Source: Clostridia bacterium (GTDB lineage Bacteria > Bacillota > DAOUPZ01). From it: a stretch of 64,000 nt of DNA. How positions within the stretch are numbered: the stretch's first letter is position 1; every line of letters begins with the position of its first letter. The position numbers and the translations under genes were made by a program. Under the pieces are notes generated by a model. It ran no database searches. It worked only from the letters and a program-made list of their open reading frames with translations, and was not told where the DNA came from. Below, one piece after another: positions 60,594 through 62,139 of the stretch. The stretch covers positions 1 to 64,000 of the forward strand of contig DAOUPZ010000001.1 in assembly GCA_030625885.1 (NCBI GenBank). Reading direction: 5' to 3'.

Positions 60594-60635
60594 AAAAAAT
60601 TCTGTCACAATTTAAATTGTGACAGAATTTTTTTA
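60594..60635. terminator. Palindromic terminator upstream of hgcA
   Basis: AAAATTCTGTCACAATTT and its exact complement form an uninterrupted palindrome with A/T tails. Confidence 0.85.
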
Positions 60636-60714
60636 TTAGTACTACTTTTCTCTAAAATTATTTATTTATGATATAATCATTTTATAATATTGTAATAGTT
60701 AGGAGGGGATTGTT

Positions 60715-61860
60715 GTGGAAAAAAATTCCAAACAGTCCTGCTGAGTGGTTGAAGAGAAAACCTCCAGTTTGGAAGGTTTAAGTGAAAAAGATATCTTTAT
60801 TAAAGAGGGTGAGGAAGAAATATCATATCACGCGATTCATCATGCTATTAAAAGATGGGTTAAAATTGATGATAAGCGAATCCCGATCATTGACACTCAG
60901 CTTAAAACGAAAGATTATTTGGGATCATGTATGGTTAGGCTTGGAATTGGCAGATATGATTATAAAATCCCACCGGGATTATATGGGGTGGGGCATGTGG
61001 ATGAAAAAAGTCCTGTTATTGTTACTGCCAATTTTAAGTTAACCTTTGATTGTTTAAGAAAAGAATTGACAGAAAGTGGCTATTGGATTCTAGTTTTAGA
61101 TACGAAAGGTATTAATGTATGGTGTGCTGCTGGGAAAGGAACGTTTGGTTCCAGAGAATTAATCTATCAGATTAATAAGTGGGAACTTAAAAAAGTGGTT
61201 AAAACACGAAATCTGATTCTGCCTCAACTAGGCGCAACGAGTATGGAACCTCATTTGGTTAGAAAATATACTGGATTTAAAGTGATGTATGGGCCAGTAA
61301 GAAGTGTGGATATACTCAATTATATTGAACAAAATTATGAAGCGGATGAAGACATGAGACGGGTAAGTTTTAGTTTGAAGGAACGACTGGTTTTAACGCC
61401 TTTAGAAATAATTTTAAATATGAAATATGTAGGTATGTTCTTTTTATATTTTTTGTTGCTAAATATATTTAATGGTACAGCAGAAATTTTGACAAAAAGC
61501 TTTTATAATACGCTGCCATTTATGATGGCAAATTTGACTGGTTCTCTCGTGTTTCCTATAATACTCCCATTAGTTCCCTTTAGGAGTTTTTCATTAAATG
61601 GTGGGTTGCTAGGCGTCTTGTTAGGCAGTTACATTTTATACGATTTTAGGATTTATACGTATCCGGAAAGCTTTTGTTTTAAATTAGGCATTTTCCTATT
61701 ATTAGTGATGTTTGTTTCTTATATTGCATTTAATTTTACCGGTTCAACAACGTATACTTCTTTTTCAGGTGTTAAAAAAGAGACAAGAATGTTTTTCCCT
61801 GCTTTATTGATAAAGGTAGGTGTGGGATTTATTCTAACGTTGATTGGAATACTTTTATAA
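60715..61860 (+). CDS. hgcA: Mercury methylation corrinoid protein HgcA, candidate selenoprotein
   Basis: HgcA transfers a methyl group from its corrinoid to Hg(II). The cap-helix motif NVWCAAGKGTFGS has its cobalt-ligand Cys codon at 61123. A CFeSP-like corrinoid domain (about residues 45-180) is followed by four or five membrane helices (about 225-380). hgcB follows. The only good ribosome site, AGGAGGGG (60701-60708), serves GTG 60715. That frame reads EKNSKQSC and then TGA (60742-60744) before continuing VVEEKTSSLEG to the end. No ribosome site precedes GTG 60745. AAACCTCC/GGAAGGTTT at 60758-60779 could be the SECIS. Selenocysteine is inferred; otherwise the start is at 60745 or the gene carries a nonsense mutation. 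Confidence 0.9.
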
Positions 61861-61872
61861 GGATGTGTTGTG

Positions 61873-62139
61873 ATGAAGTTTAAGTACCTCAAAAATGTTG
61901 TGACGCTGGAATTAAATAGAGAAGCGTGTATTGGGTGTGGGTTATGTAAGATGGTTTGTCCGCATAGGGTTTTTCAATTGGAAAACCGGAAGGCAATCAT
62001 TACAGATAAAGAAAAATGCATGGAATGTGGTGCTTGTGCTTCTAATTGCCCGGTAGACGCCATAAAGGTTGACAGCGGCGTCGGTTGTGCGGCAGCAATG
62101 ATTAATAAAATTTTGGGGAGCAAGGGAGGATGTTGTTAA
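61873..62139 (+). CDS. hgcB: Mercury methylation ferredoxin HgcB
   Basis: 88-residue ferredoxin that supplies low-potential electrons to the HgcA corrinoid. Two 4Fe-4S motifs (CIGCGLCKMVCP and CMECGACASNCP), one extra conserved Cys (VGCAAAM, residue 72) and the C-terminal GGCC pair are exactly the HgcB pattern; the Cys pair is thought to bind mercury. It starts at ATG 61873 (or GTG 61870), 12 bases after hgcA, with AAGGATG upstream. The two genes form one operon. Confidence 0.96.
   Translation: MKFKYLKNVVTLELNREACIGCGLCKMVCPHRVFQLENRKAIITDKEKCMECGACASNCPVDAIKVDSGVGCAAAMINKILGSKGGCC

Follow-up and report, generated by a model that had tools for sequence, protein, structure and literature searches.

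HgcAB makes methylmercury, and mercury is bound more tightly by selenium than by sulfur, so a selenol in the methylase would bear directly on the uptake and release of Hg. Forms of both HgcA and HgcB that contain selenocysteine (Sec) have already been described: in the parts covered here, PMC11588087 and PMC13188914 cite Haft & Gwadz 2023 (J Bacteriol 205:e00259-22) for them, and the second of these, a 2026 review, gives HgcA as NF040863 with a 'CU' motif (WP_250697417.1) and HgcB as NF040864 with 'GVGU'. A CU motif is also found in the MerB-like SaoL and in SaoC of the Sao (Sec-assisted organometallic) system, proteins thought to handle organometals, according to the section of PMC13188914 that treats them. 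By term search, no mention of HgcA was found in the portions of the 2008 GOS and deep-Sep papers that were covered.

The window, by which we mean the whole 64,000-nucleotide stretch analysed, contains an hgcA gene whose reading frame extends upstream through an in-frame UGA directly preceded by a Cys codon. The initial annotation proposed a Sec-containing HgcA here and knew of no described HgcA selenoprotein; the latter statement was wrong, as Sec-HgcA was predicted in 2023 according to the same parts of PMC11588087 and PMC13188914. The window protein shares both its family and its CU motif with this Sec-HgcA, with no difference found in the material covered, and both the CU form of HgcA and the GVGU form of HgcB were recovered independently in the present analysis. 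Judged by its sequence, the window gene thus appears, with good support, to be a further and phylogenetically isolated example of the described Sec-HgcA and not a new class. SaoL and SaoC, by comparison, belong to protein families and an operon unrelated to the window HgcA.

We put the probability that hgcA in the window encodes a selenoprotein at roughly 94%. Translation would start at GTG 60715, SelB with Sec-tRNA, guided by a hairpin at 60758-60779, would place Sec at UGA 60742, and translation would continue into the corrinoid-binding and membrane domains, giving an HgcA with an N-terminal Cys-Sec tail where most homologues carry Cys-Cys. The features concerned are the following.

60701-60708, + strand: ribosome-binding site AGGAGGGG for the extended hgcA, by direct reading
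60715-61860, + strand: hgcA with predicted Sec, MEKNSKQSCUVVEEKTSS..., 381 residues if UGA is Sec (NF040863 for the downstream part; CU/CC alignment)
60742-60744, + strand: in-frame UGA, predicted Sec, second residue of a Cys-Sec pair (aligned with UGA or Cys in homologues)
60758-60779, + strand: bacterial SECIS-like hairpin AAACCUCC-AGUUU-GGAAGGUUU, with place and loop like those of all 12 UGA-type hgcA genes
61870-62139, + strand: hgcB ferredoxin with GVGC (Cys) and a C-terminal CC (NF040864, 2.3e-36, above the cut-off)

On sequence grounds the gene is a true hgcA. The part downstream of the UGA matches NF040863 (NCBIfam) with 374.6 bits (cut-off 275 bits; E=4e-112), its cap-helix motif NVWCAAGK fits N(V/I)WCA(A/G)GK, and hgcB adjoins it. 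The upstream extension was re-read directly and is as originally claimed: AGGAGGGG is separated by six bases from GTG 60715-60717, which is followed by the codons GAA AAA AAT TCC AAA CAG TCC TGC and, nine codons from the start and directly after the Cys codon TGC, by TGA 60742-60744, in the frame of the 371-codon hgcA ORF (60745-61860). The mechanical ORF begins at GTG 60745, so the CU motif is hidden, and gene callers that stop at UGA will lose it in the same way. A TGA lies upstream in 19 of the 56 long frames in the window, and only in hgcA is it preceded by a Cys codon.

In order to compare the N-terminus with those of its homologues, as the initial annotation had suggested, HgcA sequences were taken from 399 genomes of the same phylum and from GTDB contigs, the latter by alignment query, giving a set of 105 genes with a clear cap-helix motif, from many phyla and including a few mutual duplicates. 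Cys or Sec was indeed found at the aligned place. Besides the window, ten genes of this set have Cys-UGA there: L035 (NYCUGPK), L036 (RNCUGPK), L052 (KACUSPD), L053 (KSCUSTD), L091 (APCUGPK), L093 (PSCUPTK), L097 (EACUGPE), L111 (APCUGPR), L114 (ARCUPPI) and L130 (TSCUPPK), with L053 coming from an isolate, Anaeromonas frigoriresistens. Others have Cys-Cys, for example L037 (NSCCSTP), L038 (KPCCAPK) and L120 (APCCGPK), and the last of these shows that close kin exchange Cys and Sec (APCCGPK in L120 versus APCUGPK/R in L091 and L111). In the 103 genes used for the tree, 57 have the N-terminal CC and 34 have neither CC nor CU. The 105 genes have 38 upstream in-frame TGAs in all, of which 11 come immediately after a Cys codon, where about one would be expected assuming even codon use (two Cys codons in 61). 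The other 27 lack a directly preceding Cys, and most of them sit before a plausible start, in no coding stretch.

One gene counted among these 27, L040, has Cys-Asp-UGA instead (QSACDUVTEE), placed just 5' of the HgcA domain and near to the QSCUVVEE of the window. It has a strong hairpin, GUCUCC-AGGUUU-GGAGAC, and could possibly represent a different Sec motif of HgcA.

The hairpin in the window was re-found where the initial annotation had placed it, beginning 13 bases after the TGA, at a SECIS-like position and with a G early in the loop. At the DNA level its arms are AAACCTCC (60758-60765) and GGAAGGTTT (60771-60779), flanking AGTTT; the loop is AGUUU in this five-base reading and GUU in the minimum-energy fold, with the apical loop at +22 from the UGA. 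Its energy is -7.0 kcal/mol, which none of 60 dinucleotide shuffles equalled when hairpins were scored at the same place. Longer stretches around it have competing folds, one of which includes the UGA, and are only moderately better than shuffles. The arrangement is common to all 12 UGA genes (the window included), in which the distance from the UGA to the start of the apical loop is 18-22 bases and the loops are mostly AGGN, GGN or UGA. Median hairpin energy is -9.9 kcal/mol for the UGA genes versus -3.95 kcal/mol at the matching place in 62 CC genes (Mann-Whitney p=2.7e-4, only a guide since the sequences are related). Hairpin energy alone was rejected as a discriminator between UGA and CC genes, because strong hairpins occur in roughly one-seventh of the CC genes too.

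The machinery for Sec decoding, whose presence had been set as a check, was found complete in the same assembly. Both selB (contig C15, 385.9 bits) and selA (C20, 631.8 bits) score above their family cut-offs, as does selD (C20, 396.6 bits), which has an in-frame UGA of its own (KSAGUAAKIG) and likewise a short-loop hairpin 3' of it. A tRNA-Sec with anticodon UCA, the selC product, was located by ARAGORN about 0.2 kb upstream of selB. With these four components, selD itself carrying a UGA, it is very probable that UGA can be decoded as Sec in this genome. The other 11 UGA-type genomes all have selA, and selB is above the cut-off in ten, the eleventh (G404) having a C-terminal selB piece only. 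Of the 15 comparison genomes, 12 carry selA as well, so the machinery, though necessary, does not set the UGA-type genomes apart and alone proves nothing. Taken together, the aligned UGA or Cys, the sel genes and the hairpins in 12 of 12 genes make Sec decoding very likely; they support the proposed Sec-HgcA, and we infer from them that Sec is inserted at UGA 60742.

The alternative most worth weighing, itself very unlikely, is that UGA 60742 is a real stop, so that GTG 60715 would open a nine-codon leader peptide and HgcA would restart at GTG 60745 or TTG 60769. Re-initiation by the terminating ribosome would be possible, as the GTG touches the UGA, and L040 likewise has a GTG directly after its UGA. 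Moreover, the HgcA domain lies wholly downstream of the UGA, and a short HgcA from GTG 60745 would keep all known domains, which is one of the points that weigh against the full Sec reading. However, in each of the other ten UGA genes the codon at this place is not a start (GGC, GGG, TCC, AGT, CCC or similar), and GTG 60745 has no ribosome site upstream, as was stated initially and confirmed by direct reading. Two further points speak against a simple stop: the UGA occupies the place of a conserved Cys, and the following hairpins are, as a group, stronger than those at CC genes.

In favour of a sequencing error or a mutated Cys codon, the TGA is a single base away from TGC or TGT. Yet UGA is found at the same place in eleven other genomes, including the Anaeromonas isolate, and the remainder of hgcA is intact, so this source of refutation, foreseen in the initial annotation, failed, and we give the explanation hardly any weight. 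A different genetic code, in which UGA would stand for some other residue (Trp, for instance), is just as improbable, considering that ordinary frames in the window end at UGA and that tRNA-Sec, selA, selB and selD are present.

As to function, it is plausible that the Cys-Sec tail takes part in binding or relay of Hg(II) or methyl-Hg, or in thiol-selenol redox chemistry. The initial suggestion was that the CU motif might bind Hg(II) or the corrinoid; of these, the corrinoid is the less probable partner, since cobalt is liganded by the Cys of the cap helix (NVWCAAGK). More speculatively, a soft, acidic Cys-Sec pair might bind Hg(II) or methyl-Hg and relay it among the solvent, the C-terminal Cys pair of HgcB and the Co site, or might instead keep the Co-Cys centre reduced or give the corrinoid redox protection. 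The critical residues reported in the parts of PMC11588087 covered here are C93 of HgcA, which is the Co ligand, and C73, C94 and C95 of HgcB; the N-terminal HgcA pair is not named there. The pair is missing from about a third of the HgcA genes; the tail can thus be dispensed with, which suggests an accessory role. Tentatively, the Cys-Sec or Cys-Cys tail could be an arm for Hg(II) or methyl-Hg in which lineages repeatedly swap Cys and Sec, tuning mercury capture or release. In the portions of the literature searched we found no test of the HgcA N-terminal region, for which the CU/CC/none pattern across many lineages offers a ready set for mutagenesis.

The HgcB described as a selenoprotein (NF040864, GVGU; Haft & Gwadz source, in the part covered) is the partner protein, and resembles the present case in the exchange of Cys and Sec in mercury methylation. 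It differs in that the window HgcB has GVGC where some relatives carry GVGU, so that in the window only HgcA is a predicted selenoprotein. An in-frame UGA in GVGU was seen in the HgcB of L035, L036, L074, L088, L099, L116, L128 and L129. In L035 and L036 it occurs together with HgcA CU in one gene pair, both products being predicted selenoproteins, and at Desulfobacula/Desulfobacteraceae loci only HgcB is predicted to be one.

In a quick tree built from 103 HgcA domains, nine changes are needed to account for the CU label, at least three of them forced by well-supported branches. Four of the Bacillota CU genes, L035, L036, L052 and L053, group with the CC genes L037, L038 and L087. The window HgcA has a long end branch (1.04), a best identity of 49% and no well-supported neighbour. 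A single-sequence search with it gave no match in genome contigs or viral contigs, nor did tblastn against plasmids; genome searches at family and class level retrieved no genome other than that of the window, and no further HgcA came from the class of G211.

Two other structures lie near the start of the gene. At 60700-60745 a predicted hairpin (z -3.2 in the fold of 60690-60795) joins the region of the ribosome site and start codon to the last codons 5' of the UGA; it could regulate initiation or be due to chance. Between the upstream gene and hgcA, at 60594-60636, there is a strong, terminator-like inverted repeat (AAAAAAATTCTGTCACAATTTAAATTGTGACAGAATTTTTTT).
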